A DNA stretch of 64,000 nucleotides, taken from the NCBI GenBank assembly GCA_032027145.1, contig JAVSMP010000001.1, forward strand, positions 2,981,116-3,045,115. Reading direction: 5' to 3'. Every line of letters starts with the position of its first letter. Position 1 is the first letter of the stretch. The translations under genes were made by a program, and so were the position numbers. This stretch comes from Ignavibacterium sp. Lineage in GTDB: Bacteria > Bacteroidota > Ignavibacteria > Ignavibacteriales > Ignavibacteriaceae. Below, piece after piece: positions 16,589-34,390 of the stretch. The notes under the pieces were generated by a model that made no database searches, was not told the origin of the DNA, and was given only the letters and a program-made list of their open reading frames with translations.

Positions 16589-16742
16589 AAAATACGTCAG
16601 TCTAAGCCTGTCGAAGACGAACATAACACAAATCTTTATCACACTTCAATAGATTCAGTGTAATAAAGTATTATTAACTTTTAAAACAATTAGAAGATTC
16701 AGATAAGCACAGCCGAGGCGGGACAAGTGGTTCGATTAAAAG
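16589..16742. repeat. left copy of the 154-bp direct repeat bounding the CRISPR-Cas island
   Basis: Positions 16589-16742 match 34154-34308 with seven substitutions and one indel by eye. The copy contains a palindromic motif (AAGCCTGTCGAAGACGAAC), an AT-rich middle, and ends with part of palindrome A plus the last 14 bp of a CRISPR repeat. The right copy is in the same orientation about 17.6 kb away. This end is the trailer side of the array. Confidence 0.85.
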
Positions 16743-16795
16743 AGTAGCCCTCATCCTAACCTTCTCCCTAAGGGAGAAGGTCTCAATCCCATTAT

Positions 16796-16816
16796 CCCGC
16801 CAGGGCGGGACAAGTC
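16796..16816. repeat. palindrome A inside a CRISPR repeat (first of 13)
   Basis: A 20-bp insert CCCGCCAGGGCGGGACAAGT (21 bp with a final C in eight copies) sits between ATTAT and GGTT of the repeat. The arms TCCCGCC/GGCGGGA are perfect around a variable central dinucleotide (AG, AA or GG). Other copies: 16936-16956, 17076-17095, 17161-17180, 17449-17468, 17535-17555, 17686-17706, 17972-17992, 18112-18132, 18517-18536, 18803-18822, 18890-18910, 19030-19050. Every copy is at the same repeat position; none is in a spacer. Partial copies end the two island-flanking repeats. Confidence 0.92.
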
Positions 16817-16872
16817 GGTTCGATTAAAAGCAAAGAAAAATAAACACAATATCAAACTATATCAAAAGGTCT

Positions 16873-16923
16873 TCGAAGTGGCTTTAGCCACGAAGATCCC
16901 GATAGGCGCCAGCCGTATCGGGA
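16873..16923. repeat. palindrome B inside a CRISPR repeat (first of 5)
   Basis: A 51-bp insert between GTCT and CAATTCC of the repeat. It holds two stem-loops: CTTCGAAGTGGC..GCCACGAAG and TCCCGATA..TATCGGGA. Other copies: 17013-17063, 18049-18099, 18189-18239, 18967-19017. On the crRNA strand it falls inside the 8-nt tag (ATTG|AGAC). In all five cases the spacer to its left is the same 38-bp sequence. Confidence 0.92.
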
Positions 16924-18836
16924 CAATTCCATTATCCCGCCAGGGCGGGACAAGTCGGTTCGATTAAAAGCAAAGAAAAATAAACACAATATCAAACTAT
17001 ATCAAAAGGTCTTCGAAGTGGCTTTAGCCACGAAGATCCCGATAGGCGCCAGCCGTATCGGGACAATTCCATTATCCCGCCAGGGCGGGACAAGTGGTTC
17101 GATTAAAAGTATAGGAAGCACAAGGACTTACCTGCAACGCTATAGTCTCAATTCCATTATCCCGCCGGGGCGGGACAAGTGGTTCGATTAAAAGGGAAAT
17201 GATAAAAAATTCATATGAAAACGCTGGGTAGTCTCAATTCCATTATGGTTCGATTAAAAGACAAAACACATTATACAGTTCACACGGCAGACCTCTCAGT
17301 CTCAATTCCATTATGGTTCGATTAAAAGTATAAAATTGGTGAAAGGGGTTTTAAATTAGATTTTGAGTCTCAATTCCATTATGGTTCGATTAAAAGATAT
17401 GTGTTACATATCAGCAGAGAAACCAGAAATATGTCTCAATTCCATTATCCCGCCAGGGCGGGACAAGTGGTTCGATTAAAAGGAAGTGAGGAAACTGGTG
17501 AAGAAATCAGACCCAGCGGTCTCAATTCCATTATCCCGCCAGGGCGGGACAAGTCGGTTCGATTAAAAGCAAAGAGGTTTATATGTGTTTCATATCAGAA
17601 AGAGGTCTCAATTCCATTATGGTTCGATTAAAAGCAGTATGCAAAAAACAGAATGGAAGCTATTGAACGGTCTCAATTCCATTATCCCGCCAGGGCGGGA
17701 CAAGTCGGTTCGATTAAAAGAATGAACCAGATAAATTTACAACTGCTTTTAATTCTGTCTCAATTCCATTATGGTTCGATTAAAAGTACTTCTTCGGGGG
17801 TTCCCCGAAAGCAGACTGTTCCGTCTCAATTCCATTATGGTTCGATTAAAAGTAACGGTAATACTGAGCAAAAACACATTCGGGGTGAAGTCTCAATTCC
17901 ATTATGGTTCGATTAAAAGAATGATGATTGATGCACTCAACGGATTGTTTGATTAGTCTCAATTCCATTATCCCGCCAAGGCGGGACAAGTCGGTTCGAT
18001 TAAAAGCAAAGAAAAATAAACACAATATCAAACTATATCAAAAGGTCTTCGAAGTGGCTTTAGCCACGAAGATCCCGATAGGCGCCAGCCGTATCGGGAC
18101 AATTCCATTATCCCGCCAAGGCGGGACAAGTCGGTTCGATTAAAAGCAAAGAAAAATAAACACAATATCAAACTATATCAAAAGGTCTTCGAAGTGGCTT
18201 TAGCCACGAAGATCCCGATAGGCGCCAGCCGTATCGGGACAATTCCATTATGGTTCGATTAAAAGAATAGCCCGCCTCACTTTCCTACCACCTCACATTC
18301 CTGTCTCAATTCCATTATGGTTCGATTAAAAGTAATGCAGTAGAACTTATTGATGATTACTGCAAAAAGTCTCAATTCCATTATGGTTCGATTAAAAGCT
18401 GATAGAATCGTTCAGGAAGCAACGACCAAAGGCTGTCTCAATTCCATTATGGTTCGATTAAAAGGATAGCCTTTTTTTTTATACTACTATGAAAACAAAA
18501 GTCTCAATTCCATTATCCCGCCAGGGCGGGACAAGTGGTTCGATTAAAAGAAAGAAAGGAGTTCACTATGCGTTACGAATATCATTGTCTCAATTCCATT
18601 ATGGTTCGATTAAAAGATTTTTATCAACAAACAAAAGGAGTAAAAAATGAAATGTCTCAATTCCATTATGGTTCGATTAAAAGAGAGCAAAAAAAGACCA
18701 TAAAAACAACAAATGGATTAGTCTCAATTCCATTATGGTTCGATTAAAAGGGTGCAGATACAGCTTTTGAACAAGGCTGTAATGCGGTCTCAATTCCATT
18801 ATCCCGCCAGGGCGGGACAAGTGGTTCGATTAAAAG

Positions 18837-19064
18837 AGTAGCCCTCATCCTAACCTTCTCCCTAAGGGAGAAGGTCTCAATCCCATTATCCCGCCAGGGC
18901 GGGACAAGTCGGTTCGATTAAAAGCAAAGAAAAATAAACACAATATCAAACTATATCAAAAGGTCTTCGAAGTGGCTTTAGCCACGAAGATCCCGATAGG
19001 CGCCAGCCGTATCGGGACAATTCCATTATCCCGCCAGGGCGGGACAAGTCGGTTCGATTAAAAG
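18837..19064. repeat. 228-bp internal array duplication, leader-side copy
   Basis: Identical by eye to 16743-16970. The spacer at 18837-18873 (same as 16743-16779) contains CTTCTCCCTAAGGGAGAAG, itself a near-perfect palindrome that extends one base into the repeat. Only three spacers separate this block from the leader. Confidence 0.85.
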
Positions 19065-19266
19065 AATAAAAAAATGAATACTATCATAAATAAAACCCCT
19101 GTCTCAATTCCATTATGGTTCGATTAAAAGTACCTGCCGTCACGACAAATATTTGGTCCTTCAAAAGCGTCTCAATTCCATTATGGTTCGATTAAAAGTC
19201 CCTTCCTTGTTCTTAATCTTGCTTAAGATAAGCTTGGTCTCAATTCCATTATGGTTCGATTAAAAG

Positions 19267-19605
19267 CCTTGGTTCTCATCTCAAAAATATTTGTTTTTCT
19301 TATAAAATCATACTTCTGCTTAAATCATTTTTCCTGAACCTAATTTTATCCGAAAACATCCGGTAGTTCAAGTTGTGTTTTGAGCATAATTTTGAAGAAT
19401 ATCACTATCTAATTTATGTGTGTATATTTTATTAAACGGAGGTTCAAGTTTTTTGTTTTGATATTCGTCTGTTTTACCACTTTTGGTTTTTAATTTTTTT
19501 TACTGTTTGGTTAAAGTTAAGTGTTTTTATTTTTTCTGTTTAACTAATTTTTTAGTTTTTTTACGGAAACAAAACTGTTTAATTGTTTTTACATAATACC
19601 AGTTA
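19267..19605 (-). promoter_or_regulatory. CRISPR leader
   Basis: 339 bp of AT-rich DNA without a gene, between the TPR gene and the first repeat. It has T runs, short AAACAG/AAACTG repeats and no palindromes A or B. The nearest repeats (28-30) are all intact, as expected at the growing end. A promoter pair is seen inside (listed separately). Confidence 0.75.
19343..19371 (-). promoter_or_regulatory. probable pre-crRNA promoter
   Basis: On the minus strand, TTGAAC (19371-19366) and TAAAAT (19348-19343) are separated by 17 bp, a near-consensus sigma-70 type pair. It points into the array, about 70 bp ahead of the first repeat. Bacteroidota often use a different consensus, so this needs a transcript start for proof. 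Confidence 0.5.
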
Positions 19606-21300
19606 TTATTGTTTTACTGTAGATTTTGCAGAGGTGTATTTTTTTAAATAGAATTTTTTCAATTGTAAAAATTTTTTCTTAAAAACTTTATCATTAAAGT
19701 TTATGTATTTATCAATTATTTCTTCAGCATTTACTATTGAGTTATTTAACAGATATGCTATTGCCAATGTATGTGCTGCATACGCTGGTAAAGTTTTTTT
19801 GCTTTTGTAAAGCGGTTCTAATGTTTTTATAGCTGCTTCGTATTTTTTTTCAGAAATATTTAGCAATGCAGTTTTTTCTAATACAAAAATTTTGTTTTGA
19901 TTTTGTAATTCTTTAGGAAAGCTGGTTTCCAAAGCTTTTTGAAAATATTCTTTTGCTGTATCGGCATATTTATTTTTCTTTACAGTTATAAAAGTAAAAA
20001 GGTTTATTGATGCTTTTCTATAAGATTTGTAAACGCCTGCAATAAAATTATCAACATCAGATTTATCAATTAAGTAGTTTTCGTTCTTGTTACGGTTGTA
20101 ATCTTTAATTATACATTTATCAATATAGCTTTCTGCTTTTATTAAAAGATTGAATCTTTCTTCATTACTTGTTTTACTATTGCCAAAAGGATCACAATCA
20201 TATAAAAGATTTTTTGCATTAAAATCAAACTTGCTTAACTGCAGATAATTTTGTGCAAGATGATAAAGAGATTTTATGTAATACTTTTTATATCGTTTTA
20301 CATCAAACTCATTGTCAATTAAATTTTCGAAGCAATAAACTGCTTTTTCAAAAGCTTCTATACCCGTTATTAAAAACTTCCGGGCTTCTTCGGATTTTGT
20401 CTGCAGTCCGTTTTCATCAGTATTTTTGAAAAGAATATCATTAAATAAAAATTCTGATAATATAAATCCCTTTCTGTAAAGATCAGCAACTCTGTTTGGT
20501 TCTAAATCAAAAACTTTTTCAAGATATTCTAATGCAGCTTCTGATTCTGTCAGGATATTTCCGTCCCTTCTTCCACCGGGCATGCTTAACTCAGTAGCAG
20601 ATTGATATAGGCTGTAAGCAAAGTTGGAGTAATATGCGGCATTTTTAGGTTCAAGTTCTATGCAGCGTTTACGCAGTTTAAAAGTCAGTTTTCTAAGTTT
20701 TCTTTTTTCAGCCAAATAATCATCTCTTTTACTTTTATCAGAAAATTTTCTTTTAAGATTTTCAGTGCATTCAGCCATTTTTGCAGCAGCAAACGAAAAT
20801 TTTGAAAGCAGTTCGGCATCATTCCAAATAATACTTTTTTCTAAAGGCTCAAACTGTTTTAGGATTTTAAATATTGCTTCCCAATCATTTTTGTTTTCCA
20901 GGCTTGATAACTGTGTAATTATTTTGTTATTAGCCAGCATTTCAAAAAAGTTTGTTTCATCCACAGCACAGCAAAATGGAAGCTCGAGTATGCTTTTAAT
21001 TTTAAAATATTTTTTAAGTGCATCTTTTATCTGAAAGGATGGGTAGTCAGTTTGTTTTTCAATTTCGCAATTTATTTTAAGATAGTTCTTGCTTATCAGT
21101 GATGATTTAACATTTAACTGAACTGCATTTTTTTCTTTTTGATTAGATTTATTAAAGTAAATCAAAGCAGATTTGATACTAATTACTTCGGTAACATTTT
21201 GTGGTATGCAGTTTTTAATCTTGATAAAATAATCACTGCCCCAAAAAAATGTTTCAGCGTTATTGATAAACTCTTTTGATGTAGAAATAATAAAGATCAT
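19606..21300 (-). CDS. TPR-rich protein of unknown function in the CRISPR-cas locus
   Basis: A 564-residue protein that I do not recognise. The first ~130 residues are not repeat-like (MIFIISTSKEFINNAETFFW..). From about 190 onward there are degenerate TPR-like helices (LEPKNAAYYSNFAYSLYQSA; LEYLEKVFDLEPNRVADLYRKGF; KYEAAIKTLEPLYKSK; YAAHTLAIAYLLNN). It is strongly basic with Lys/Arg clusters (LKRKFSDKSKRDD; EKRKLRKLTFKLRKR), so RNA or DNA contact is possible. No HEPN, CHAT or nuclease motif was found. It follows cas2 by 17 bp on the same strand and ends at the leader, so it is in the adaptation operon. It could be an adaptation accessory factor or an effector adaptor. Confidence 0.75.
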   Translation of the reverse strand: MIFIISTSKEFINNAETFFWGSDYFIKIKNCIPQNVTEVISIKSALIYFNKSNQKEKNAVQLNVKSSLISKNYLKINCEIEKQTDYPSFQIKDALKKYFKIKSILELPFCCAVDETNFFEMLANNKIITQLSSLENKNDWEAIFKILKQFEPLEKSIIWNDAELLSKFSFAAAKMAECTENLKRKFSDKSKRDDYLAEKRKLRKLTFKLRKRCIELEPKNAAYYSNFAYSLYQSATELSMPGGRRDGNILTESEAALEYLEKVFDLEPNRVADLYRKGFILSEFLFNDILFKNTDENGLQTKSEEARKFLITGIEAFEKAVYCFENLIDNEFDVKRYKKYYIKSLYHLAQNYLQLSKFDFNAKNLLYDCDPFGNSKTSNEERFNLLIKAESYIDKCIIKDYNRNKNENYLIDKSDVDNFIAGVYKSYRKASINLFTFITVKKNKYADTAKEYFQKALETSFPKELQNQNKIFVLEKTALLNISEKKYEAAIKTLEPLYKSKKTLPAYAAHTLAIAYLLNNSIVNAEEIIDKYINFNDKVFKKKFLQLKKFYLKKYTSAKSTVKQ

Positions 21301-21317: not shown

Positions 21318-21611
21318 TTAAAAAAACTGTGTAATTTCATTTTTTTCAGTTCCTAATATTTTTTTACCTATATGTTTTTGTTCTTCGGCATAGTAAAAGA
21401 TAATAGAATCTTTTTCTTTGTTAATAATACTTATCAATCTATCTTTTAATGCTTTAAATTGCTTTGCAGTTAAAACACCTTCAAAAGCAGAGTTTTGAAC
21501 CCAATTCATATACTTTCTGAAAGTCTTTAACACTTTCGGTAGTCTTTTAGGGTTAGATATGTCATAAACAGCTATATAAAACACTTTACTAATTGGCTCT
21601 GTATGGATCAT
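21318..21611 (-). CDS. cas2: CRISPR-associated endonuclease Cas2
   Basis: A 97-residue Cas2 with the ferredoxin-like N-terminus FYIAVYDISNPKRLPKVLKTFRKYMNWVQNSAFEG; the Asp in YDI is the conserved metal-site residue. The C-terminal KDSIIFYYAEEQKHIGKKILG is typical. Cas2 bridges two Cas1 dimers in the spacer-integration complex. The start overlaps the cas1 stop by 23 bases, indicating coupled translation. Length is normal. Confidence 0.95.
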   Translation of the reverse strand: MIHTEPISKVFYIAVYDISNPKRLPKVLKTFRKYMNWVQNSAFEGVLTAKQFKALKDRLISIINKEKDSIIFYYAEEQKHIGKKILGTEKNEITQFF

Positions 21612-22665
21612 AGGATTTAAGTTTACCGTTTAAATAATTAATTAAGTTATAACATTCCATTCTAATTAAGGACCTGAATGAAAGCCTTCTGTTAATTCTT
21701 TTATGCAGTATTACAGTGCTGAGTCTTTTTTCAAATTCTTCAACAAATTTTTTTCTAGCATTATCCTTCAGATATAATCCTTTTTCAGTTGGTTTAAAAT
21801 CATCTGGTTGAATAATATTAAGGTTTATCACTCTGAAAATAACTTTATCAACAATTACAGGTTTAAATATTTCAGAAAGATCATAAGTCAATGGATGTTT
21901 GTTATCGCCAACCTCGTGTATAAAGCCAATAAAAGGGCTTAATCTTGTTCTATATATTTCGGAAAAGCATACAGCATACAGCAATGAGTTACCGAATGAA
22001 ATTAGTGAGTTTACAGTACCAACAGGTGGATTTTTCATTCTTCTATAAAAATCATTTTGTTGTTTTAATATTTTCTGCCAGCTTTCGTAATAAATATTTC
22101 TAACCTGTCCTTCAAAGCCCATTAGTTCTTGTATAGTTTCAGCAAATCTAACTTGTTCAATATAGGCTGAGATAGTGTTAATCTGCTCATCAAGATCAAG
22201 CCCTGTATATGTATATGCTTTTAAGCTGGTCAATATATTTTTCAGTGAAGATTCAATAATCTTTTTTGCGATATAAATTCTTCTGTTTTGGTTAAGATAA
22301 GCACTGTATTGCAGTAACTGAATATCACCTGATCCATTATGATTTACTGGCATAAAACTGCCGATATAGTTTCCGTAATAATTAAATATGTGCACAGGTA
22401 TTGAATAATTATTAAGACATTTAAACAACTGAGTATTAAATCTTACTTCACCAAAAGTATAAATAGATTCTACAGATTCAGCAGGTATATGTTTTGAGCT
22501 GCCATTTGTTTCAGATTTAGCAGGCGGCAGAATAATATGCTCTTCTTTGTCTTCAAAAATATCTATTTTGTTAAGAGGTTCAGTATCCGCTAAAGTATTA
22601 AGAATTAATGAATCATTCTTTCTGGACAGAACAGAATTCGAGAATATGTAAATGTTGTTTTTCAC
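21589..22665 (-). CDS. cas1: CRISPR-associated integrase Cas1
   Basis: A 358-residue Cas1 of the type I-B/III branch. Seen: SIYTFGEVRFNTQLFKCLNNYSIPVHIFNYYGNYIGSF in the N-terminal beta domain, and the metal triad in the helical domain: ELMGFEGQVRNIYY (Glu), LSPFIGFIHEVGDNKHPLTYDLSEIFKP (His and the following acidic residue). It is somewhat longer than usual; the extra residues (about 25-55, PLNKIDIFEDKEEHIILPPAKSE) interrupt the N-terminal domain. Integrates new spacers beside the leader at 19267. Fully intact. Confidence 0.95.
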   Translation of the reverse strand: MKNNIYIFSNSVLSRKNDSLILNTLADTEPLNKIDIFEDKEEHIILPPAKSETNGSSKHIPAESVESIYTFGEVRFNTQLFKCLNNYSIPVHIFNYYGNYIGSFMPVNHNGSGDIQLLQYSAYLNQNRRIYIAKKIIESSLKNILTSLKAYTYTGLDLDEQINTISAYIEQVRFAETIQELMGFEGQVRNIYYESWQKILKQQNDFYRRMKNPPVGTVNSLISFGNSLLYAVCFSEIYRTRLSPFIGFIHEVGDNKHPLTYDLSEIFKPVIVDKVIFRVINLNIIQPDDFKPTEKGLYLKDNARKKFVEEFEKRLSTVILHKRINRRLSFRSLIRMECYNLINYLNGKLKSYDPYRAN

Positions 22666-22877: not shown

Positions 22878-23201
22878 TTAATTAATTGAGTAGTACATTT
22901 TAATAGTTTTGCAGTCCTCCTTTTCAATATGATTATGAAATCCAGTAGCGTTAAAGAAAAAATTCCTAATTTCACTGTCTTTAGTAACTACACATAAATG
23001 ATGTATTATAGCATCAGAAAAAATTATTGTTTTCCCTTCAATAAATTCCACATTATTTGGTTCATAGTAGTTTATTATAAATTCATACTCTGCCCAGATA
23101 CCTGAATAGAAAGTTTTCGCTCCAACTATTTCAATTGCATCTGATATGCTGTTGCCATTACCGCCTTCAAATTTTATAATTTCTGCAGTTGAATCCTTCA
23201 T
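22878..23201 (-). CDS. small hypothetical protein in the cas locus
   Basis: A 107-residue acidic protein with no family that I recognise. No signal peptide or membrane helix. Beta-rich look (ISDAIEIVGAKTFYSGIWAEYEF; EFIEGKTIIFSDAIIHHLCVV) with a conserved-looking HH pair and FHNH. The ORF is supported by GGAG eight bases before the ATG. It lies after a terminator and before cas1, so it may be the first gene of the adaptation transcript. It could be a CRISPR accessory, an anti-CRISPR-like or transferred cargo gene, or unrelated. Confidence 0.6.
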   Translation of the reverse strand: MKDSTAEIIKFEGGNGNSISDAIEIVGAKTFYSGIWAEYEFIINYYEPNNVEFIEGKTIIFSDAIIHHLCVVTKDSEIRNFFFNATGFHNHIEKEDCKTIKMYYSIN

Positions 23202-23366: not shown

Positions 23367-24452
23367 TTAGTACGATAATTTAATTTTGTCTGTTTCGGAT
23401 TTTATAAAATATTTTGTGTTTCCGTATTCTCTTTCACTGCTGATTATAAATTGGTCAGCAGTAACTTCATCATCAAAAAGCGGCGCTAAACATTTGTTAA
23501 TTTTGGAACGCTTTGTACGGATTGCTTCATGTCCAAAACCTTTTAGCCACCATGTGTTTTTCTTCTTTCCATCGAAATAATAGTATGGATATTTTTCACG
23601 CATAAAACTATAAACAGCATTTGCAAATTCTATGTCTGCTAAATAACCTATTGTAAGTTTTTCTTTCCCTTCTTGTTTTATCTCTAACAATTTAAAATAA
23701 ATTGCAAATTCTTGTGGCTCTAGCTTTATAGAATTTAGTCCAAATTTTACTTCTCTTGTATCAGTCTTCAGAATAATTTTTGTTTTATTAGTTAGCGCTT
23801 TTAATTGATTCTGAGTTTTTTCAACAAAATCCGAGTAATTTTTAAGATCTTTTATCTCGCTTCCTAAAATGGATCTTAGACGAATAAATGGTATTTCAGA
23901 AAGTTCTAACTCCTTTGCATCTTGTTTATTTTTTGGATAAAAGCCTTTGAATTCATTTTTTTCAGAAGTAAGCACATGAAGCAACTTATCATTTTCGCGC
24001 CCAAATAAAGTTAGTGCAAAGGCAAGATGGACACTCATAGTTTTTCTTCCGCCAGAAATTGAACAATATAAGTTCGTATTATCTCGAGTTGAAATGCTTT
24101 TGATAAACTCGCACATTCTGTTAGGAAAAAGTATATTATGTTTATCTGTACGAATATCAGAAAGCTCTAATGATTCTTCCTTAGCCGTAATAATATGCTC
24201 ACTGTTATTCTCAAACTTTGGCAGATTTACTTTGTACTGTTGACACAAATTTTCAATTTCGGATTTAAGAGCAGATTTAGGAGTATTAGGTGCTTTGTCA
24301 GTTCCTTGTATCACATTTTTCCCCCTTTGTGTAGTAAGCACATAAATTTCGTGTATCGGAATTTTATTTTTTACCGAAAGACAAAAAAGGGTTTCGGTTA
24401 TAATTTGAGGTGTAAGACCAGAAACACAAATGAGAATATTCTTAGTTTTCAT
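23367..24452 (-). CDS. CARF-domain protein, NE0113 family (TIGR02584/PF09623)
   Basis: A 361-residue protein. The N-terminal CARF (Rossmann-like) domain is clear: ILICVSGLTPQIITETLFCL at residues 5-24 and SISGGRKTMSVHLAFALTLFGR near 130-150, the ligand-binding signatures. The C-terminal ~100 residues (GHEAIRTKRSKINKCLAPLF..) look like a winged-helix domain. No HEPN RxxxxH motif or PD-(D/E)XK site was seen. Family members are annotated as ring nucleases or cyclic-oligoadenylate sensors in type III systems; this one could degrade the signal or act as a transcriptional sensor. It overlaps the Card1-like gene by four bases. Confidence 0.85.
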   Translation of the reverse strand: MKTKNILICVSGLTPQIITETLFCLSVKNKIPIHEIYVLTTQRGKNVIQGTDKAPNTPKSALKSEIENLCQQYKVNLPKFENNSEHIITAKEESLELSDIRTDKHNILFPNRMCEFIKSISTRDNTNLYCSISGGRKTMSVHLAFALTLFGRENDKLLHVLTSEKNEFKGFYPKNKQDAKELELSEIPFIRLRSILGSEIKDLKNYSDFVEKTQNQLKALTNKTKIILKTDTREVKFGLNSIKLEPQEFAIYFKLLEIKQEGKEKLTIGYLADIEFANAVYSFMREKYPYYYFDGKKKNTWWLKGFGHEAIRTKRSKINKCLAPLFDDEVTADQFIISSEREYGNTKYFIKSETDKIKLSY

Positions 24453-25486
24453 AATTCGATAATATCTCCCTTAGAAATATTAGTTACTTTTATCTGAAGT
24501 TCAGCCGCTCTTTTTAAAAACGACTCAGAACTTTCGTTTACACTTACAAACAAACCTTTACCAAATGTTCCTGAAGAAATATTCCTGATAGTTTCTAATT
24601 GAAACAAGTCGAATTGATTATCCTTTTTACCTGATTTACACGATATCAGATAAAGTTTGAAATCTTTTAAAACAATGGTATCAATTTCACTTGAAACTTG
24701 TCTATCAGATTGAATTTTTACTCCGGACATCAGTTCGATACCTTGCAGTTCATTTAACTTGTAATAGACATAATACTCAAGCCAATCACCGGATTTATAC
24801 TCAGATTCATTAACAGAAAAATTTTCGCGGTGTTTATTGCCAAATTCAATTCTGAAGGAACCGAAGTTTTTCTGAAAAAGAAAATTCTTATCAAAACTTG
24901 TAACTGAAAATTTTGATGATGATTGAGCTAATCTTTTCTTTATTTCCTCGTTAAACTCCAGAAAAGATTTCATCAGCTTATATGTTTCAATAAATTTAAA
25001 CAATGAGTAGTATTTCTCAATCTCCGAAATCTCTTTTTGTTCAATAATTTTATAACCATAAGAAAGCAGATAATCTTTAATTGTAAGTTTAACAGTAAAA
25101 GGTTCTGTTTTAGTTTTAGGAAATAAATGCAACAGTTCCAGATTTTCTGTGTTACAATAAAAAACAGGAATTTCATTTACTCTGGCAAAATCATAGGCGG
25201 CAATAGACATAGGTTTTGTTCCGCCTGTAATGTTTATAAACAAAGAATCAGGTTTATCGTTTGCAATAATTTCTGAGAGCGCATTTTTAACTGAGTCAAT
25301 TTGATAAGCTTTAATATTTTCCTTTGTGATAACCTCCATATTTTTCGATTCAAACAATTCCTTAAGATGAATTCCGCACTCCCTTTCTTCTTGAGTCATT
25401 AAAAGATATACTTTACTTGGATTATACATTAAAACAGGAATTACATTCGGCATTGCCTGGCGCGAGACGAGACAAACTATATTCAT
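24449..25486 (-). CDS. card1: Card1/Can2-family cyclic-oligoadenylate-activated nuclease (CARF + DUF1887)
   Basis: A 345-residue two-domain effector. The CARF domain covers residues about 1-140 (MNIVCLVSRQAMPNVIPVL; SLFINITGGTKPMSIAAYDFA). After a helical linker, a PD-(D/E)XK nuclease covers about 220-345: GDWLEYYVYYKL (Glu), SSEIDTIVL (Asp), and LYLISCKSGKKDN (catalytic Lys). This is the architecture of Card1 and Can2, which cut single-stranded DNA, RNA or nicked DNA when bound to cyclic tetra-adenylate made by Cas10. All nuclease residues appear present, so it should be active. It is coupled by four-base overlaps to the CARF genes on both sides. Confidence 0.88.
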   Translation of the reverse strand: MNIVCLVSRQAMPNVIPVLMYNPSKVYLLMTQEERECGIHLKELFESKNMEVITKENIKAYQIDSVKNALSEIIANDKPDSLFINITGGTKPMSIAAYDFARVNEIPVFYCNTENLELLHLFPKTKTEPFTVKLTIKDYLLSYGYKIIEQKEISEIEKYYSLFKFIETYKLMKSFLEFNEEIKKRLAQSSSKFSVTSFDKNFLFQKNFGSFRIEFGNKHRENFSVNESEYKSGDWLEYYVYYKLNELQGIELMSGVKIQSDRQVSSEIDTIVLKDFKLYLISCKSGKKDNQFDLFQLETIRNISSGTFGKGLFVSVNESSESFLKRAAELQIKVTNISKGDIIEL

Positions 25487-26715
25487 TTAATCTCCGGAAA
25501 TTCTTTTACATAATGTGGCTTTTCAATCTCACTAAAAAATAAATTTACCAACTCAGATGCTTCAGAATACAATTTTCCATCTAATGATTTCATTCCGTGC
25601 GCAAGAATTGAATTATTCCTAAGTTGAAGCACCTTTTTAATATTTTCTATATTTTCAAAGAATTTAATCCCTAATGGATTATTGTGCTTATTTAACAAAT
25701 CAAAAGTTGCAAAAAGCGGAAGTTTGATTTTATTATCCTTACTATCTAAATACTTCGCATTGATTTCATCAGCAAACTCTGTGGGAATATTTTCAATCCT
25801 AACATCTGAAGTGGAACAATTGAAAACTTTTTCAAATTCTATTTGTCCAATCATTTCTAATGTGCGGTACAATCTGGCAACTGCATCATCAAATTTACCT
25901 TCCTTTGCCCGTCTATCTGAATTTTGTATTAATTCAAATATCTTCTCATAAGAAAGATTCTTTTCCTTTAATTCCCTTAAAAATGGTTTATAGTATTTTT
26001 CAAATCTGTTCTTCAAATCAAATTCTTTAAGATTTTCTACAAGAATATTGTTTGAAATTTCCCAAGCATAAGAAAAATTAAATTTATCCCAGGCATCAAA
26101 CATTTTAGAAAGCTTTATAAGTAATTCAGATTTTCCCTGATATTCCGGATGGAACTCGTGCTTCTCCAAAAGTTCTATACAACTGTTAAAGCGGTAAATG
26201 TTAAATAGTTCAACAGCTTTATCAAATATATTTTTAGAATAAAATTTATTCGGAGAAAATGAGTTTCGTCTTTCAGTACCTGATTTTACTCTTCCTCCAT
26301 CACCTCGATCTCCGTAAACATAAGATAAAGAACCAACTTTGTTTTCTATTGCGGCACTTACTAATGCAGCTGACATAGCCTTTGTTCCGCTTGTATAATC
26401 AACACAAATTTTATTTAATGAATAACCTTGTTTTAATAATTTTTTAATTATATCAGAGTATTGAAAATGAAGATTTTCAAGATCATTTACCTCTTCAATT
26501 AAATTTTCAACTATTTCTAAATTAATATTTTCAGCATTAATCATATTTTTCAAGTGTGGCAGAGTAGTCTCAAAGCTCTTTGATGAGCCAATAAGAATGA
26601 GAATGGCAGGGTTAGAATCTTTGATAGAAAAAAATAAACCGTGTGCGACATCCGAACCGCTAGCACCGGTGCCGACAGTCATAATTAAAACTTTTTTGGA
26701 ATTGTTTTCAATCAT
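25483..26715 (-). CDS. CARF-HEPN ribonuclease, TIGR02710/Cas02710 family
   Basis: A 410-residue protein. CARF domain at residues about 8-170: VLIMTVGTGASGSDVAHGLFFSI and VDYTSGTKAMSAALVSAAI. The C-terminal helical half contains LQLRNNSILAHGM (residue about 375-387), an R-X6-H HEPN active-site motif. By family, cyclic oligoadenylate binding at the CARF dimer activates HEPN RNA cleavage. It takes the place of Csm6, which is not found in this locus. It follows csm5 after a 92-bp gap that contains a hairpin. Confidence 0.85.
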   Translation of the reverse strand: MIENNSKKVLIMTVGTGASGSDVAHGLFFSIKDSNPAILILIGSSKSFETTLPHLKNMINAENINLEIVENLIEEVNDLENLHFQYSDIIKKLLKQGYSLNKICVDYTSGTKAMSAALVSAAIENKVGSLSYVYGDRGDGGRVKSGTERRNSFSPNKFYSKNIFDKAVELFNIYRFNSCIELLEKHEFHPEYQGKSELLIKLSKMFDAWDKFNFSYAWEISNNILVENLKEFDLKNRFEKYYKPFLRELKEKNLSYEKIFELIQNSDRRAKEGKFDDAVARLYRTLEMIGQIEFEKVFNCSTSDVRIENIPTEFADEINAKYLDSKDNKIKLPLFATFDLLNKHNNPLGIKFFENIENIKKVLQLRNNSILAHGMKSLDGKLYSEASELVNLFFSEIEKPHYVKEFPEIK

Positions 26716-26807: not shown

Positions 26808-28334
26808 TTATTCTTCAGCTTTGCCCCTATAATCAGCTTTTTGCAAAGCTTTCTTTTGAAAAACCAACTCTACAAATACTTTTGACCCGTTTTTAAGCCC
26901 AAGACCTTCTAATCGGACACCTGGTAATGTTGTTTCTTTACCTTGGTGTTCGCCATCGAGAATCTTTACTTTGGGAGGTTTGGATTTATCGTCAATGATT
27001 TCGGCTGTTACTGAATTTGGTGGTCGTTGCTTAATCTTTTTTTCTTCTGAAATATTAATTTCAGTAATTGCAAAATCGTTATTATAAAATTTTACCCACC
27101 CAAAGCCACCATAAATATTCTGATTATTGGAATATTTTCTTGTGAAGGGAAATTCATCTATGTTTAATTTTGTCGGATTGTTTCTATTGGAAGTATGGCT
27201 GCCAATGTTAACGGCTTTATAGAACTCAAACACTTTTTGCTTTAACGATGTGTCCTTTAGAAGTAATGGGAAAATAGTCATCCCGCTAAATCCAGTTCCA
27301 AAACCGACTTTAAACTTGTTTTCAGTATTATAAAGATTATCTAATGACCTAATATTAGCATTCCCTATATTATTTATTGAATTTATCCATTCTCTCTCAA
27401 GATTTGAAACTGCGGTTCCAAATTCATTCCAAGATTTAATCAAAGAATCAACAATTTTTTTTTCTGTAAACTCAGATTCATTTTTAATATCTATATCAAA
27501 TAGATTTTTCAACTTATTTTCAATTCCAATGAAAAACTTTTTCCCAAATTCTGAATTAGGCTTATTAAGTTCTTCCTTAGCTTTTTTTAGAAATTCAATG
27601 TCCACAGAAATATCAAATTCTAATTCAACGTTTTCTTTGATTGATTCAGTATATGTTATAAAAGGTTTGTGAGCTGGTACCTTTTGGAGAGCATAAACCT
27701 GAAGTTTCGAGATTTCACCATTATCATTTGTGGAAACTGAGAATGAGTCGGATATCTTAACGAGTTTAAGCAAATCGAATTTTTGATCATCATAGGTGGT
27801 TGTAACTCTTCCGTTTTTTTCTTTTTCAACTCCGCAAATGAAAGTTTCTTCATTTAGCTTGTCGTCAGCCGTTTTTAAGAAGCGTTTAATGTTTTTCTTA
27901 TCTATCCTATTTGTCTCATTAATTAAATCATTTAATACTTTTAATAAAAAATTTTTGTTTGAGCTATTGAGTAGAACTTTATACATCAATGCAGTTCTTA
28001 AGCTTCCCTTTAACGAGCTTCCCGGTATAAAAAATTTGTTAGAAGAATCTTTAATTCCTTCATTCAAATCTCTAGGCAAAGTACTGGTAAAGGAATACAA
28101 TCCACATTTATTAACAATTTCTTGAGGTTTAATATTAAACTTTCGCTGGATTTCACTTACTGTTAATTGAGGGTTTTGATCGAGCCAACTAAAAAATTCA
28201 TTTTGCTTCTCTTCAGCTACTAATTCAAATAATTTATCATAGTTAATTCTATAATTATTCAAAAATTCAAGTGTTCCTAATTTTTTTCCCGTTCCGATAT
28301 GAATCGGTGTTAAACTTTTTATTTTAACTTTCAT
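26808..28334 (-). CDS. csm5: type III-A CRISPR RAMP protein Csm5
   Basis: A 508-residue RAMP protein that caps the crRNA 3' end in the Csm complex. Seen: the N-terminal strand KVKIKSLTPIHIGTGKKLG, and FFIPGSSLKGSLRTALMYKVL, the RAMP loop near residue 105. GFGTGFSGMTIFPLLL and FPFTRKYSNNQNIYGGFGWVKF are typical of Csm5. It is long for the family; about 75 C-terminal residues (SVTAEIIDDKSKPPKVKILDG.. to the end) form a beta-rich, OB-like extension. It overlaps csm4 by four bases. Confidence 0.92.
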   Translation of the reverse strand: MKVKIKSLTPIHIGTGKKLGTLEFLNNYRINYDKLFELVAEEKQNEFFSWLDQNPQLTVSEIQRKFNIKPQEIVNKCGLYSFTSTLPRDLNEGIKDSSNKFFIPGSSLKGSLRTALMYKVLLNSSNKNFLLKVLNDLINETNRIDKKNIKRFLKTADDKLNEETFICGVEKEKNGRVTTTYDDQKFDLLKLVKISDSFSVSTNDNGEISKLQVYALQKVPAHKPFITYTESIKENVELEFDISVDIEFLKKAKEELNKPNSEFGKKFFIGIENKLKNLFDIDIKNESEFTEKKIVDSLIKSWNEFGTAVSNLEREWINSINNIGNANIRSLDNLYNTENKFKVGFGTGFSGMTIFPLLLKDTSLKQKVFEFYKAVNIGSHTSNRNNPTKLNIDEFPFTRKYSNNQNIYGGFGWVKFYNNDFAITEINISEEKKIKQRPPNSVTAEIIDDKSKPPKVKILDGEHQGKETTLPGVRLEGLGLKNGSKVFVELVFQKKALQKADYRGKAEE

Positions 28335-29392
28335 TGCATCCTCAGATTAGCTTTCATTCCAAAGAATAAATAATTGCTATAAATATTTTGTTCATCGTTA
28401 AATTTTGCGGTTGGCACAAGTCTTCCATAAAGTGATTGAGAAACAAAAAAGGAAGATCCTTCAGTAAAGCAAATTACTGGATTTTTCTCATTAAACTCTA
28501 AATTAAAATCCTTTCCTACTTTTCCAATTCGTGTTGTTAAGTCATAGAATAAATGCACTGAATTATTTTTGATTAGGTCAATCTCCACTTGAGAAGGTTG
28601 AAATAGCGATAGCGATACCAAAGCATTAGGATTTGCTGGCACTGAAAAACTAAAATCCTCGATGACAAAATCAAAGCTGCCTTTACCAATCGATTTGTTA
28701 CCTCCGATACCAATATGTGAAAGTAATCTAAGTGGACCTTCAATTAATGAAACATCCGATCCGTCCGCCAAGAAATATATACCTTCAACTACATTTTGTT
28801 TTGAAGATAATTTATTCCCGAAACCGTTAAACTCTTCTTCCCAATAAAGCTGTCCCTTCCCATCTATTTGCAGAGTAGATCCACTCATTCTATCAATAGA
28901 ATTGTGTAAAATGAAAGAAGGGCTTAAACTTTTCTTATAATCAAACCTGTTATCTTTTATTACGTCTATGTTTCTTTCACTTTCTTTTTTGATTTCTTCT
29001 TTTTGCCATCTTAAAAATCTCTCTAATAAAATGTTATCGTCAATTTCGCCGTTCAAGTAGCCCTCAAATAATTTTTTATTTATATATCGAATCCTCTTAA
29101 AATCCTTCAGATAGGTCATTTCTTCCGGGTCTTTTGCATTTCTGATATTTACACCAGTAATTGGCTTTGGCAAATAGTAAGTGATTTTCTCTTTTTCACC
29201 ATTTTCAATCGTGAATGGGAAAATAGATGAAACTTTAAATGGGATTTCAGTCGAAAAATACTTTTTGAGAAGCTCTGATGTTTTATCTACACCATAAAGC
29301 ATTCTATATGCATAAACTAAATTTCCCCAAAGAGTATCTGAATTTAGAAATGTGTGGAAATTAGTTTTAGGATATATTCTTATTATTTTCAT
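28331..29392 (-). CDS. csm4: type III-A CRISPR RAMP protein Csm4
   Basis: A 353-residue Csm4, which sits beside Cas10 and holds the crRNA 5' tag. Seen: KIIRIYPKTNFHTFLNSDTLWGNLVYAYRMLYG (Csm4/Cmr3-like N-terminus), SIDRMSGSTLQIDG, and the glycine-rich loop LSHIGIGGNKSIGKGSFDFVI near residue 225. The C-terminus ends near GMKANLRMQ. One base separates it from the csm3 stop. Confidence 0.92.
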   Translation of the reverse strand: MKIIRIYPKTNFHTFLNSDTLWGNLVYAYRMLYGVDKTSELLKKYFSTEIPFKVSSIFPFTIENGEKEKITYYLPKPITGVNIRNAKDPEEMTYLKDFKRIRYINKKLFEGYLNGEIDDNILLERFLRWQKEEIKKESERNIDVIKDNRFDYKKSLSPSFILHNSIDRMSGSTLQIDGKGQLYWEEEFNGFGNKLSSKQNVVEGIYFLADGSDVSLIEGPLRLLSHIGIGGNKSIGKGSFDFVIEDFSFSVPANPNALVSLSLFQPSQVEIDLIKNNSVHLFYDLTTRIGKVGKDFNLEFNEKNPVICFTEGSSFFVSQSLYGRLVPTAKFNDEQNIYSNYLFFGMKANLRMQ

Positions 29393-29393
29393 C

Positions 29394-30173
29394 TTAATTT
29401 CCGTCTTCTAATTTTATTCCTTTCTGAGTATCAAACATAAGGTCCTTCGTTGAAATATTTGGATTTTCCTTTTCTTCAAATACTTTTTTGAAATTACCAT
29501 TACCGTTTTGATAATCATTAACGCTTACAAAGTATGGTTCAAAAAAGTCAAATTCAACTTTACCACTGCCGCGGCTTCCGCCGCCGCCAAGTGTTGAGTC
29601 TTCAAGAAGTCGAATTGCTTTGACTAATTTTTCAAAATTACTTTTACCATTGTCCTTATCCATCGAAAAAACCTGCAAAACAAATTCCACATCAAATTTA
29701 GAATCTTTGTGTATCCGCTCCATAAAACGAGGATTTGCAGCAGAGGTCATTCTGTCAATAGTATTCTCAGCTTTGTATTCGGTGTAAAGAGTTTCTGAGT
29801 TTGCGTTTTCCCACATTGAAATTGTTTTTGTATCGGGATATGCATCACGAACAATTAATCTTGTGGGACCGTTTGAACTGTTATCTGCACTATCGCCAAA
29901 AAGCGAGGTAATTTCTGAATCAGAGCTCGGCGGATAATTACCTTTATCGTTTGCCTGCACTTTGCCTTCTGCAAATTCCAAGAGCATACGAAGCTTTCCT
30001 TTTAAAGATGAACCCGGTATATACGGATAGTTTGTAATTGGATCTTTAATAACTGGATTATCAACACCTCCGATTTCAAACTTGTCTTTAGAGCCGCCAA
30101 TATGAAGTGGGGTTAGAGTTTTTAGTTTCCCTTTAAGAATGATATTACCTAAAAAAGAATTAGTATTATTCAT
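29394..30173 (-). CDS. csm3: type III-A CRISPR RAMP protein Csm3
   Basis: A 259-residue backbone subunit of the Csm complex and its target-RNA cutter. The catalytic Asp is visible in IGGVDNPVIKDP (Asp38 of this protein), followed by PYIPGSSLKGKLRMLLEFAEG. The glycine-rich loop is STLGGGGSRGSGKVEFDFF near residue 200. GGAG lies just before the ATG. Because the Asp is present, the complex should cleave bound RNA at 6-nt steps (family knowledge). Confidence 0.95.
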   Translation of the reverse strand: MNNTNSFLGNIILKGKLKTLTPLHIGGSKDKFEIGGVDNPVIKDPITNYPYIPGSSLKGKLRMLLEFAEGKVQANDKGNYPPSSDSEITSLFGDSADNSSNGPTRLIVRDAYPDTKTISMWENANSETLYTEYKAENTIDRMTSAANPRFMERIHKDSKFDVEFVLQVFSMDKDNGKSNFEKLVKAIRLLEDSTLGGGGSRGSGKVEFDFFEPYFVSVNDYQNGNGNFKKVFEEKENPNISTKDLMFDTQKGIKLEDGN

Positions 30174-30184
30174 TTTTTTCTCCT

Positions 30185-30568
30185 TTATAAATTTTTGCCT
30201 TCTTCATAGAATTTATGGTAGGCAACAAAACCCTCCATAATATCAAAGAATAATTCTAGTTTGTTATTAAAATCACCAGATGTGCTTAACACAGAATCTG
30301 TCAAGACAAATACATCTTTTCTAAAATCCTTCAGATCTGATCTACCTGTCTGTTTGCCTTCTGCATACAATAACATTGCTTTTAATTTTCTCAACCTTAA
30401 TTCAATCTTATTTTTTTCACTTGGATTGGCTCTGTAAAATGTTCTTAATGATACTATCTCAGAGAAAAAATTTCTAAGTTGGTTTGTAGTAAAATTTTTG
30501 TAGTAGTCTTTTCCTTTTCCAGCATAATAATCCTCTATTTGCTGTGGTGTTGTATTTGAAAGATCCAT
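30185..30568 (-). CDS. csm2: type III-A CRISPR small subunit Csm2
   Basis: A 127-residue, all-helical small subunit. Matches Csm2 in length, place between cas10 and csm3, and sequence: TTNQLRNFFSEIVSLRTFYR and KLRKLKAMLLYAEGKQTGRSDLKDFRK. Two to three copies line the target RNA in the complex. AGGAGG lies seven bases before the ATG, a strong ribosome binding site. Confidence 0.9.
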   Translation of the reverse strand: MDLSNTTPQQIEDYYAGKGKDYYKNFTTNQLRNFFSEIVSLRTFYRANPSEKNKIELRLRKLKAMLLYAEGKQTGRSDLKDFRKDVFVLTDSVLSTSGDFNNKLELFFDIMEGFVAYHKFYEEGKNL

Positions 30569-30570
30569 AT

Positions 30571-32913
30571 TTACCTCCTTGTTTTATATAATGCTAAAGT
30601 TAATGGAAATTTAATTTTTTTGAATTCTTTTTCTTTGTCTTCGCCGAGTAAAAGTCTAACAGCAAGTTTATAGAGTAGATTATTAACTTTTGTTTTGCTA
30701 TCATTTTTTTGTTCGATGATGTTACTGTTAACTTTTCTTCTCGCAAATAAATAATGAAGTGTACTTTTTGCTTTACTTAACTTTTTTAGGTTTGCCATAC
30801 CCTTTGAATCAAAGACATTACCTGTCAAGCTGTATAAATTGTACAAAAAACTTCTTGGAATAATTTTTTTGCCCTCATCTGATTCAAGGAATTCAATTAA
30901 TTCATCTGCATATTTAATAAATTCATCAAACTCTTCCCAAGTCAATTGAATATTTAAAACACCAACTTTGTTCTTTTCAAGTTTATTAGGACAAGTATCT
31001 TTGGCAATTTTTTCTTGTACTTCTGCTAATAAAGCAGATTGAGAAATTGGAAAATTTGGTTTAGTAAAAATTATTCCCGCTGAAGCTGAGAGATGTTCAT
31101 TTTCACATACAAAAGCTCTTAGTTTTTTTCTAAGTTCATTTGCAAACTTTATAATTTGATACCAATTACCAACGACAAACAAATCATCTCCACCTGAATA
31201 AGCAATATAAATATTATATGCCTTGGCAATTTCATTTATATAGCCAGTAAAAAACCAGTTAAGCTCTCTGGATAAATTGGCAACTCTTGAAGGTGTGTAT
31301 TTTTTCTCTTCTTCTCGTAATTCTTTCAATCCAAAAGAAAAAACTGCACCGAGATTATCTACATCCATTCTCATTATGCCCAATAATGGATAACTCTTTG
31401 AATGTTCTTCAGCCAAATCTTCAAATGATTTTGGTTGTTGAGACCCGTCTAAGGGTAAACTTCTGCCAATAAATCTGAACCCCTTAGCTGTATTATAGAA
31501 GATTGTTCGATTAAGCTTGCTTACAAAATCAGTATCATTTATAGTGGTAATCTTTACATTATTCTTCTTTACAATATTTGATAAAATATCTTCAATTTCT
31601 GTTAGTTCTTTGCACAAATAAACATAGGTATTTAATCCTTTGAAAGATACACTGACAAACTTGTTTTCAACTATTTTTTCAATTTTATCTTTTGTTGTTA
31701 CCAAATATTTTATTTTGGGTATAATTTCCCCAACTTGTTTTTCTTCATTTTCAATTTCTTTTTCTTTCTTGTGATAATTGCTGGCTTCAAGTGAGTTTGA
31801 GAAAAGATTTGATAACTGATTTCGATTTTTTTTCTTTTTTCTTTCGTTTAGCTTATTATCAAGCTGTAAGTAAATATTCCTGAAATCACCAATAAATTCT
31901 TTACCGCTGCATTCAACCTTTTCAAGAATAAGTGAAACTCTGCCGATATATTCAGTTGATAGGAATTCATTGATGTTGTTTTCTACTTTTACTAATTCCT
32001 CTTTAATGTTAGTGTTGTTCGGAGCTAACATAAGGAAATGTCCTCCACCATCATAAATTAAATTAGCTTCAAATAAATTCAATTGTTCTAGAAAAAAATT
32101 TGATATTACTCCGGTTAAAAGCTGAATAGTAAAAGATCTTCCACGCAGTCTTTTGGCAATATCTGTCATCTCCCGTATGCCATTATAAATGTAATTTTGA
32201 ATTCCAGAAATATCACCTTTAATAAGTAAACATTCCTTGTTTTCTTCTCCCTTTTCAAAACAAGTGCTTAAAGCAGCAGTAATTCTGGAATGATCAAAAA
32301 GCGAAATATCCGGATGAGATAAATATCCTGCTGATAAAACTTTAGTAGTGTATTTTTCTAATAAGTAATAGAATGTTAATATGAAAGATCCAAATTCAGT
32401 TTCATTATAAAGCAGTTTTAATTCTTCTATAAATCCTTTCAGAAGATTTTTATGATGTTCAATATATTCACCATCGTTGTGTTCATAATCTTCGAGAATT
32501 TTATTATTATTTTCTGGAAAATTATCCCTTTCTAACAGAGATAAGACTCTAGGAATATAATACCAATAATTTTCAGTTTTATTTTTTTTGAATGGCTTGT
32601 CAAATTCGACCCTATTTGTAATTGCTTCTAAATATCTTCGCGGTGCTTTATCGAGACTATCTTCTCTTTCTTGTGCTGCAATTACATCAGCTTTCCAAAT
32701 CTTACCGCTTTGGCGATTAGCTGCTTTAATAATCTTTTCAATATCTGTTTTCAGACATTCAACTTTTCCTAAATACTCTCTGATAAATTGTGAACCCAAA
32801 GATTCATGATCATCTCCAGCTTTAATTTCTTGTGCACGCCAAATAAGTTTTCCAAAATCGTGCAACAATGCACCTAAGTAATTTATCTGATATTCGCTTA
32901 GACTATTATTCAT
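30571..32913 (-). CDS. cas10: type III-A CRISPR large subunit Cas10/Csm1
   Basis: A 780-residue Cas10. N-terminal HD motif: LGALLHDFGKLIWRAQE (His18-Asp19), consistent with single-stranded DNase activity. Two Palm domains follow, and the second holds the cyclase motif YSGGDDLFVVG near residue 575, so it should make cyclic oligoadenylates from ATP on target binding. The start is placed at MNNSLSE (32913) because it overlaps, as ATGA, the stop of a 26-codon ORF upstream; an in-frame ATG at 32922 is possible. It ends two bases before csm2. Confidence 0.95.
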   Translation of the reverse strand: MNNSLSEYQINYLGALLHDFGKLIWRAQEIKAGDDHESLGSQFIREYLGKVECLKTDIEKIIKAANRQSGKIWKADVIAAQEREDSLDKAPRRYLEAITNRVEFDKPFKKNKTENYWYYIPRVLSLLERDNFPENNNKILEDYEHNDGEYIEHHKNLLKGFIEELKLLYNETEFGSFILTFYYLLEKYTTKVLSAGYLSHPDISLFDHSRITAALSTCFEKGEENKECLLIKGDISGIQNYIYNGIREMTDIAKRLRGRSFTIQLLTGVISNFFLEQLNLFEANLIYDGGGHFLMLAPNNTNIKEELVKVENNINEFLSTEYIGRVSLILEKVECSGKEFIGDFRNIYLQLDNKLNERKKKKNRNQLSNLFSNSLEASNYHKKEKEIENEEKQVGEIIPKIKYLVTTKDKIEKIVENKFVSVSFKGLNTYVYLCKELTEIEDILSNIVKKNNVKITTINDTDFVSKLNRTIFYNTAKGFRFIGRSLPLDGSQQPKSFEDLAEEHSKSYPLLGIMRMDVDNLGAVFSFGLKELREEEKKYTPSRVANLSRELNWFFTGYINEIAKAYNIYIAYSGGDDLFVVGNWYQIIKFANELRKKLRAFVCENEHLSASAGIIFTKPNFPISQSALLAEVQEKIAKDTCPNKLEKNKVGVLNIQLTWEEFDEFIKYADELIEFLESDEGKKIIPRSFLYNLYSLTGNVFDSKGMANLKKLSKAKSTLHYLFARRKVNSNIIEQKNDSKTKVNNLLYKLAVRLLLGEDKEKEFKKIKFPLTLALYKTRR

Positions 32914-32990
32914 TTTGTGCACCTCTGCTCAAACTTCCCAATATCATGGAATAGCGCTCCAAGTATTAAGGTTTTTTCTTCTTGTGTCAT
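32910..32990 (-). pseudogene. 26-codon remnant of a second cas10 N-terminus
   Basis: The minus-strand ORF from ATG 32990 to TGA 32910 encodes LGALFHDIGKFEQRC, the HD-motif opening of a Cas10, then stops. It resembles but does not copy the opening of the full cas10 next to it (LGALLHDFGKLIWRA). The stop overlaps the cas10 ATG. Most likely it is the stub of another cas10 replaced by recombination; it may still work as a translated leader. Confidence 0.7.
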
Positions 32991-33080: not shown

Positions 33081-33872
33081 TTAATTTTTAATTACTTCAG
33101 CCATTCCAAATCCCATACTATTTTTCTCACCAAATCCACATTCATATCCGGTTTTAATTAATTCCGGATCACCTTCAATTAAAAATGGTGCTTGTATCCC
33201 GATTACATCAATAGGAAATTTACCGTGTTCGTTTATTGTAATCTTTTTAGTTATTCTCTTATTTTTAATCAGATAATCTTGGTCCCACTGAATTTTACAG
33301 TATTCATCCATCACTTGATTCCGACTCAATAATCCCTTTTTATTTAAGAGATTTTTGGTTAACACTCTATTAATCTCATCTATATCCTCAGGTCTTAAAT
33401 AATATGTTTTTATTTTCCCATCAAACTGTCTTACTGTTGATAGTACCATAGGAGAAAGTAAAATAAATTTCATTTTATTTGTAAAAACAGGTTCAGGTAT
33501 TACTTCTGCGGTTAGAATTCTGAAATCAATTATTCTCTGTTTATCAGTAATTTGAATTACTTTATTTTCAAACGTACCAACAACAAAGTTCTTAATAAAA
33601 GGATCAATCAATGGTGACGAAATGTAAAGTGTACTCTTGTTAGAATTTGAGATAAGGTAATTCTCTTTAACCTGTGCTTTCTCAAAACGGAGGGCAAAAG
33701 AAAATAGCTTAAACTTTTTCCCATCAATACTATATCCTGTATTATGCAGGAATTGAGAAAATTCAGGCGAACCAAGCTGAAGTAAATTATAAATAGCTGA
33801 ACTTAACTGATAGTTGTAGTTTAATGGTATTGCACTGTTTAAACTAACATCTAAATGCAACACTAATCTCAC
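33081..33872 (-). CDS. cas6: CRISPR pre-crRNA endoribonuclease Cas6
   Basis: A 263-residue Cas6. The C-terminal glycine-rich RNA-binding loop YECGFGEKNSMGFGMAEV is diagnostic, and the N-terminus is MRLVLHLDVSLNSAIPLNYNYQLSSAIYNLL. The start is GTG with GGAGG six bases upstream. The probable catalytic His is among the N-terminal third (for example FLHNTGYSIDGKKFKLFSFA). It cuts pre-crRNA in the repeat to leave an 8-nt tag. First gene of the cas10-csm operon. Confidence 0.93.
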   Translation of the reverse strand: MRLVLHLDVSLNSAIPLNYNYQLSSAIYNLLQLGSPEFSQFLHNTGYSIDGKKFKLFSFALRFEKAQVKENYLISNSNKSTLYISSPLIDPFIKNFVVGTFENKVIQITDKQRIIDFRILTAEVIPEPVFTNKMKFILLSPMVLSTVRQFDGKIKTYYLRPEDIDEINRVLTKNLLNKKGLLSRNQVMDEYCKIQWDQDYLIKNKRITKKITINEHGKFPIDVIGIQAPFLIEGDPELIKTGYECGFGEKNSMGFGMAEVIKN

Positions 33873-34390
33873 AGAACCTCCGAAAAAAGTGTTTATTCAT
33901 TAGATTATTCATCTACTCATCACCCCGGATGCAGCTATGAATTTACGAAGGGGGTATAATTTCTAACAATCAACAAAGTATATTTAACAATGCACAATCA
34001 ATTCAAAAATTACAATAGAAAATAAAAAAATGATTAACAATAACCTAAGTTTACTTTAAATAATTTTACCTTCTGAAAAAATGAAGTACTGACCCATTAC
34101 TTTTGCAAAATATTTGGATTGCAATAATTAAACTTTATAGGCTCAGTGAAAGCAAAATACGTCCGTCTAAGCCTGTCGAAGTCGAACATAGCATAAATCT
34201 TTATCACACTTCAATACATTCAGTGTAATAAAGTATTATTAACTTTTAAAACAATTAGAAGATTCAGATAAGCACAGCCAGGGCGGGACAAGTCGGTTCG
34301 ATTAAAAGACTTATCAATTTTATTAACGCTGTTAAAAATGAAGAATATTTTTCTTATGTTTAAGCGTAATAATTTAGAGAGAGTTGTAAA
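33873..34390. other. 518-bp region upstream of cas6
   Basis: No gene. It holds the divergent promoters of cas6 (minus) and the outer-membrane gene (plus), and the right direct repeat at 34154-34308. On the minus strand TTGATTG..TATACC (about 33955-33980) is a possible weak promoter. After the repeat the sequence is AT-rich up to GAGAGAG near 34379, the probable ribosome binding site. Confidence 0.5.
34154..34308. repeat. right copy of the 154-bp direct repeat bounding the CRISPR-Cas island
   Basis: Matches 16589-16742. It also ends with part of palindrome A (CCAGGGCGGGACAAGTC) and the last 14 bp of the CRISPR repeat, GGTTCGATTAAAAG, but no spacer or further repeat follows. It may be the trailer end of a lost second array or the product of recombination at palindrome A. 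Confidence 0.85.

Follow-up and report, generated by a model that had tools for sequence, protein, structure and literature searches.

Thirteen of the 30 full repeats of a type III-A CRISPR array in Ignavibacterium sp. are split by a palindrome, insert A, at repeat position 15/16, between ATTAT and GGTT, and related genomes hold different palindromes at the same point (site 1). Insertion at the CRISPR repeat is strongly supported, and we put at about two in three the probability that REP-like palindromic elements have repeatedly inserted at preferred points of the repeat family CAATTC..GATT in Ignavibacteria, after which recombination spread them within the array. Coordinates refer to the window, the whole stretch of 64,000 nucleotides that was analyzed, which belongs to a genome (G000) assembled as one contig of 3,665,746 bases.

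Inserts in a type III-A array

The array occupies 16717-19266, with crRNAs encoded on the minus strand, and consists of 30 full repeats plus one partial repeat, as defined by array parsing and leader alignment. Its full repeats have the sequence GTCTCAATTCCATTATGGTTCGATTAAAAG, with halves GTCTCAATTCCATTAT|GGTTCGATTAAAAG on either side of site 1, and the crRNA-strand repeat, CTTTTAATCGAACCATAATGGAATTGAGAC, carries a 3'-terminal tag of the usual kind (AUUGAGAC). The partial repeat at the trailer end (16717-16742, plus strand) carries the 3' part of insert A. Since the leader (19267-19600, minus strand) aligns with similar sequences in two relatives, G005 and G009, the right end of the array is taken as its young end. 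As in type III-A systems, cas10/csm1, csm2-csm5 and cas6 adjoin the array, and all cas genes of the locus lie on the minus strand and end beside the leader: cas2 (21318-21611; TIGR01573), cas1 (21589-22665; TIGR03641/PF01867), csm5, csm4, csm3, csm2 and csm1/cas10 (26808-32922, where csm3 and csm5 were assigned from RAMP matches and gene order), and cas6 (33081-33872; PF01881/PF21350, with relatives in the PDB). Three CARF-type ancillary effectors, a Cas_NE0113-family protein, a Card1-like nuclease and Csm6, are encoded consecutively at 23367-26715 on the minus strand.

Other features of this locus can be recorded here. Between cas2 and the leader (19606-21300) lies a gene for a 564-aa TPR-like protein that has no NCBIfam match and has a counterpart at the same place in G009 (L153:7203-8942), and a 107-aa ORF without a Pfam or NCBIfam match separates cas1 from the CARF genes (22878-23201). 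In addition, a 140-nt segment (95% identical) occurs on both sides of the type III-A locus, at 16589-16742 and 34154-34308, and each copy runs on into the 3' portion of insert A and then the half-repeat GGTTCGATTAAAAG; these segments may be what is left of another array that lay upstream of cas6, or else direct repeats through which the locus could be excised. Searches of phage and plasmid collections for spacer targets gave only weak, chance-level matches.

Insert A (CCCGCCNNGGCGGGACAAGT; stem plus tail, CCCGCCNNGGCGGG) is 20 nt long in five copies and 21 nt, through an extra C, in the other eight, and its central dinucleotide is AG in 10 copies, GG in one and AA in two. The interrupted repeats start at 16780, 16920, 17060, 17145, 17433, 17519, 17670, 17956, 18096, 18501, 18787, 18874 and 19014. 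Within them, the 21-nt copies lie on the plus strand at 16796-16816 (repeat 16780-16830), 16936-16956 (repeat 16920-16970), 17535-17555, 17686-17706, 17972-17992 and 18112-18132 (both AA variants), 18890-18910 and 19030-19050, and the 20-nt copies, on the same strand, at 17076-17095 (repeat 17060-17109), 17161-17180 (the GG variant), 17449-17468, 18517-18536 and 18803-18822. The insert is a pure insertion with at most one ambiguous base, and the target-site duplication of several bases that characterizes MITEs is absent. Array parsing thus bears out the initial annotation, which had described 13 of 30 repeats with a palindrome at one exact site and no interrupted spacer: all 13 inserts are at 15/16, and spacers measure 35-37 nt beside insert-bearing repeats and 36-38 nt beside clean ones. 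The same annotation had proposed counting the palindrome across the genome and its relatives. In the whole of G000, CCCGCCNNGGCGGGACAAGT occurs 13 times on the plus strand and not at all on the other, always inside the array (a reversed-pattern control gave 0), and dispersed copies outside the array number zero genome-wide. The genome also contains a second array, of 73 repeats, beside a type I-C cas7 gene (L307:5661-10433); it is perfectly regular, with an insert in none of its 73 repeats, so insertion here affects a single repeat family.

Five repeats, those at 16920, 17060, 18096, 18236 and 19014, carry a further insert, a 51-nt double palindrome (TCGAAGTGGCTTTAGCCACGAAGATCCCGATAGGCGCCAGCCGTATCGGGA) between GTCT and CAATTCC (site 2). 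Its copies lie on the plus strand at 16873-16923, 17013-17063, 18049-18099, 18189-18239 (the one whose repeat is without insert A) and 18967-19017. A 38-nt spacer, X, is repeated five times together with these inserts, in 140-nt units that are single or in tandem, and the first palindrome of the pair has no copy elsewhere in the genome even when three mismatches are allowed.

The arrangement of inserted repeats bears on how insert A multiplied. From leader to trailer, clean and inserted repeats alternate, beginning with clean ones, in runs of 3, 3, 3, 1, 4, 2, 3, 1, 1, 2, 3 and 4, so that the three repeats nearest the leader have no insert and the inserted ones form six runs that are only mildly clustered. 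One way to account for this would be a single old insertion whose further copies arose within the array when blocks were duplicated, when repeats underwent gene conversion or when the leader-proximal repeat was copied as a new spacer was acquired. All copies of insert A share one orientation and one site, and block duplication is proven by the duplicated spacers, X (five times) and an AGTAG spacer present at both 16743-16779 and 18837-18873. However, there are six separate inserted runs, several of them beside unique spacers, as well as two tail lengths and three loop variants, and this explanation leaves the other palindromes at site 1 in other genera unaccounted for. As a general explanation it is therefore improbable, yet for the spread inside the G000 array alone it could well hold. 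Because inserted repeats also stand beside unique spacers, conversion, repeated insertion or loss is required in addition to block duplication, and the spread of insert A inside the array needs more than one event. The AGTAG spacer (AGTAGCCCTCATCCTAACCTTCTCCCTAAGGGAGAAG) is itself mostly a palindrome (CCTTCTCCCTAAGGGAGAAGG).

Predicted effects on the repeat hairpin

The repeat contains a hairpin with a three-pair stem and a three-nt loop, in which the stem is CCA/TGG, CCG/CGG, CTA/TAG or CCT/AGG. These inner three pairs form in all 14 repeats from different genomes, with compensatory changes, and the whole hairpin pairs in 94.9% of cells, compared with 89.2% when shuffled and no more than 43% with the partner slid. 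Site 1 falls at the apical loop of this hairpin in G000, G005, G032, G088, G110 and G011, and 1-3 nt off the loop in G146, G145 and G151. Placement within the apical loop of such a conserved hairpin recalls the intervening sequences of rRNA, with the offset of 1-3 nt in the last three genomes.

In the predicted folds, insert A changes the repeat RNA from -1.9 kcal/mol when clean to -18.6 kcal/mol, as one continuous hairpin in which the extra stem stacks on CCA/UGG, in agreement with the stem-loop gain that had been anticipated for these repeats. No change is predicted in the CCA/UGG stem or on the 3' side, so Cas6 cleavage after the stem would be expected to survive. This fits the earlier proposal that the Cas6 cut and the adjoining 16 nt stay intact, and crRNAs from repeats with insert A probably still mature. 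Site 2 lies elsewhere, within the 8-nt tag and at the 3' foot of the repeat hairpin, and its insert should spoil the crRNA tag.

These positions allow the role of selection to be weighed. If palindromes inserted anywhere and only those in the apical loop, which spare crRNA maturation, survived within arrays, site 1 would be explained by tolerance alone, and its place at the loop, with Cas6 cut and tag intact, agrees with such filtering. However, an insert in a spacer should cost at most that one spacer, yet none was seen inside spacers in the arrays examined; site 2 is inside the tag and is still recurrent, so functional tolerance cannot account for both sites; and the palindrome of G000 is absent from the remaining genome. 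Tolerance as the sole cause is accordingly unlikely, if somewhat less so than a single old insertion.

The same sites in related genomes

In nine further related genomes, site 1 of CRISPR repeats is occupied by other palindromes, which can have either orientation. The insertion point is 15-16 in G000 and G032, 15 in G005 (TCCCGCAAACGGGACAAG), 14-15 in G110 and, in reverse orientation, in G088 (CTTGTCCCCCTGGGA), 16 in G146 (TTCGCTAGGGGCGAACAAG), 16-18 in G151 (CCTGCCTACCGCAGGTAGG), about 17-18 in G145, which has two unrelated palindromes there, and 13-14 in G011, where the repeat is of another family; G109 also carries a palindrome at this site. Site 2, next to CAATTC, holds palindrome clusters in G009, G005, G088, G145, G151, G110, G109 and G032. 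This independent occupation of site 1 adds weight to the suspicion of a repeat-targeting element that was voiced in the initial annotation. That annotation was right about the site, the spacers and the stem-loop, and it missed site 2, the occurrence in other genera, the position at the hairpin loop and the clean second array.

Arrays of the relatives were collected from the neighborhoods of cas1 homologs and by a class-wide pattern search. The cas1-neighbor search, which does not select for inserts in mid-repeat, supplied six of the site-1 genomes, and G005, G088 and G146 were found with a pattern that presupposes site 1. For all six unselected genomes to have inserts at positions 13-18 of a 66-nt unit by chance, the probability is ~6e-7, on the assumptions that all positions are equally open and that each genome represents one event. 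One class-wide match, in G446, was dropped as apparently coding sequence. A phylum-wide pattern search, with a pattern that fits only one repeat family, gave no clear nested case outside the order.

In most relatives, whose assemblies are mostly fragmented, the inserts are at the trailer (old) end, some of them in repeated long units that look decayed, and decay rather than insertion may account for part of the pattern; the main array of G005 has 36 clean repeats as well. At the trailer end of a G005 contig (L241:9478-10153), tandem units of ~120-130 nt combine CRISPR half-repeats with inserts at site 1 and a long inverted repeat (GAAGACGAAAGACG...CGTCTTGCGTCTTTC). In another genome, G089, tandem palindromes (GGATAAATCCTGTCCTACAGT) lie beside a cas1 gene (L193:702-971).

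The relatives also speak to the fear that repeats from two populations, or misjoined reads, had been combined during assembly or binning. Breaks at such units do occur in the relatives' assemblies (G005 C24/C42, G009 C12/C35), but G000 is a single 3.67-Mb contig with normal spacer lengths, with variants of insert A and with a clean 73-repeat array within the same genome, and the same kind of insert occurs at the same site in nine other assemblies, which together make an artefact very improbable.

Affinities of the element and implications for CRISPR repeats

The inserted element is a stem-loop with the tail ACAAGT (head ACTTGT on the other strand), found in both orientations. Inserts of the ACAAG type have A|T borders, like most solitary copies elsewhere, and a few scattered copies occur in G003, G005 and G032, and also in other phyla. 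A general preference for dyad centers was considered and set aside, as only two independent nested cases, a G032 compound and one in Ignavibacteria GWC2_36_12, were found among ~35 solitary copies; the shuffle test for dyad centers did reach significance, but it owed this to copies of a single compound. Since most solitary copies are not nested in a dyad, hairpin targeting is no general property of the family. The G032 compound (L252, L254, L255, L256, L257 and L258) is a dispersed element in which TCCCGAAAGNATTCGGGACAAG is nested at the exact center of GTAGAGACGGGGCA|TGCCCCGTCTCTAC.

Repetitive extragenic palindromes (REPs) and REPtrons are mobilized by RAYT enzymes and include families tagged by GTAG and CGTC (PMC3733652). 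Insert A falls within the REP definition of an imperfect palindrome of 20-40 bp, has a short conserved tag at one end and, as an element, is found between genes in several related genomes, as REPs are. Unlike REPs, its tag is ACTTGT/ACAAGT rather than GTAG or CGTC (PMC3733652), and its copies in G000 are all in one CRISPR array instead of being dispersed in extragenic DNA. Unlike REPtrons, it shows no RAYT gene flanked by the palindrome. Transposases of the IS200/IS605 type are present in G000, and of its four Y1 transposase genes, the two that were scored fall in IS200/IS605 and do not reach the RAYT cut-off; the surroundings of all four contain no hairpin with the ACAAGT tag, and no Y1 transposase was detected in G145, G146 or G109, which carry inserts. 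A resident RAYT-type enzyme as the source is therefore unsupported. The element resembles REPs but stands outside the REP superfamilies described so far.

Other known systems share single aspects of this arrangement. Insertion sequences insert into REPs (PMC1525189), so a short palindrome is the landing site of a mobile element there too, whereas here the element that lands is itself a short, gene-free palindrome and its target a CRISPR repeat. Mobile DNA also interrupts CRISPR-Cas loci when insertion sequences enter cas genes, as single, inactivating events (PMC10359306); in contrast, the tiny insert described here is shared by many repeats at one point and need not inactivate. In the open-access papers searched, we found no report of palindromes, REPs, MITEs or transposons within CRISPR repeats. 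Among functional RNAs, intervening sequences sit in the apical loops of 23S rRNA helices, and like insert A they are stem-loops that extend the tip of a helix, the host RNA here being pre-crRNA. Removal from the RNA by RNase III is a feature of the rRNA inserts.

Under the reading we prefer, repeated insertion followed by recombination, stem-loop elements with an ACAAGT tail, normally found between A and T, would repeatedly enter CRISPR repeats of the CAATTC..GATT family. We infer that the route is transposition and that the target recognized is the repeat or its hairpin. After its arrival at site 1 of the type III-A array, insert A would have become more numerous through recombination among repeats, new insertions or both. 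Within precursor crRNA, it would lengthen the hairpin by stacking on CCA/UGG, and the Cas6 cut one nt past the stem, together with the 8-nt tag, would stay intact. A more far-reaching and rather doubtful proposal is that a class of miniature palindromic elements is specialized on CRISPR repeats; these would recognize the DNA hairpin, insert at its loop or foot, and ride recombination and array turnover, and the resulting crRNAs with short and long hairpins would possibly affect or adjust type III immunity.

CRISPR repeats are usually regarded as fixed by Cas6 and Cas1-Cas2. Array finders may split or discard arrays with inserts of this kind. If such inserts recur in several genera at the same two positions of the repeat, CRISPR repeats would be a landing site for selfish DNA, and these arrays would provide natural repeat-length mutants for probing the tolerance of Cas6 and the adaptation machinery.
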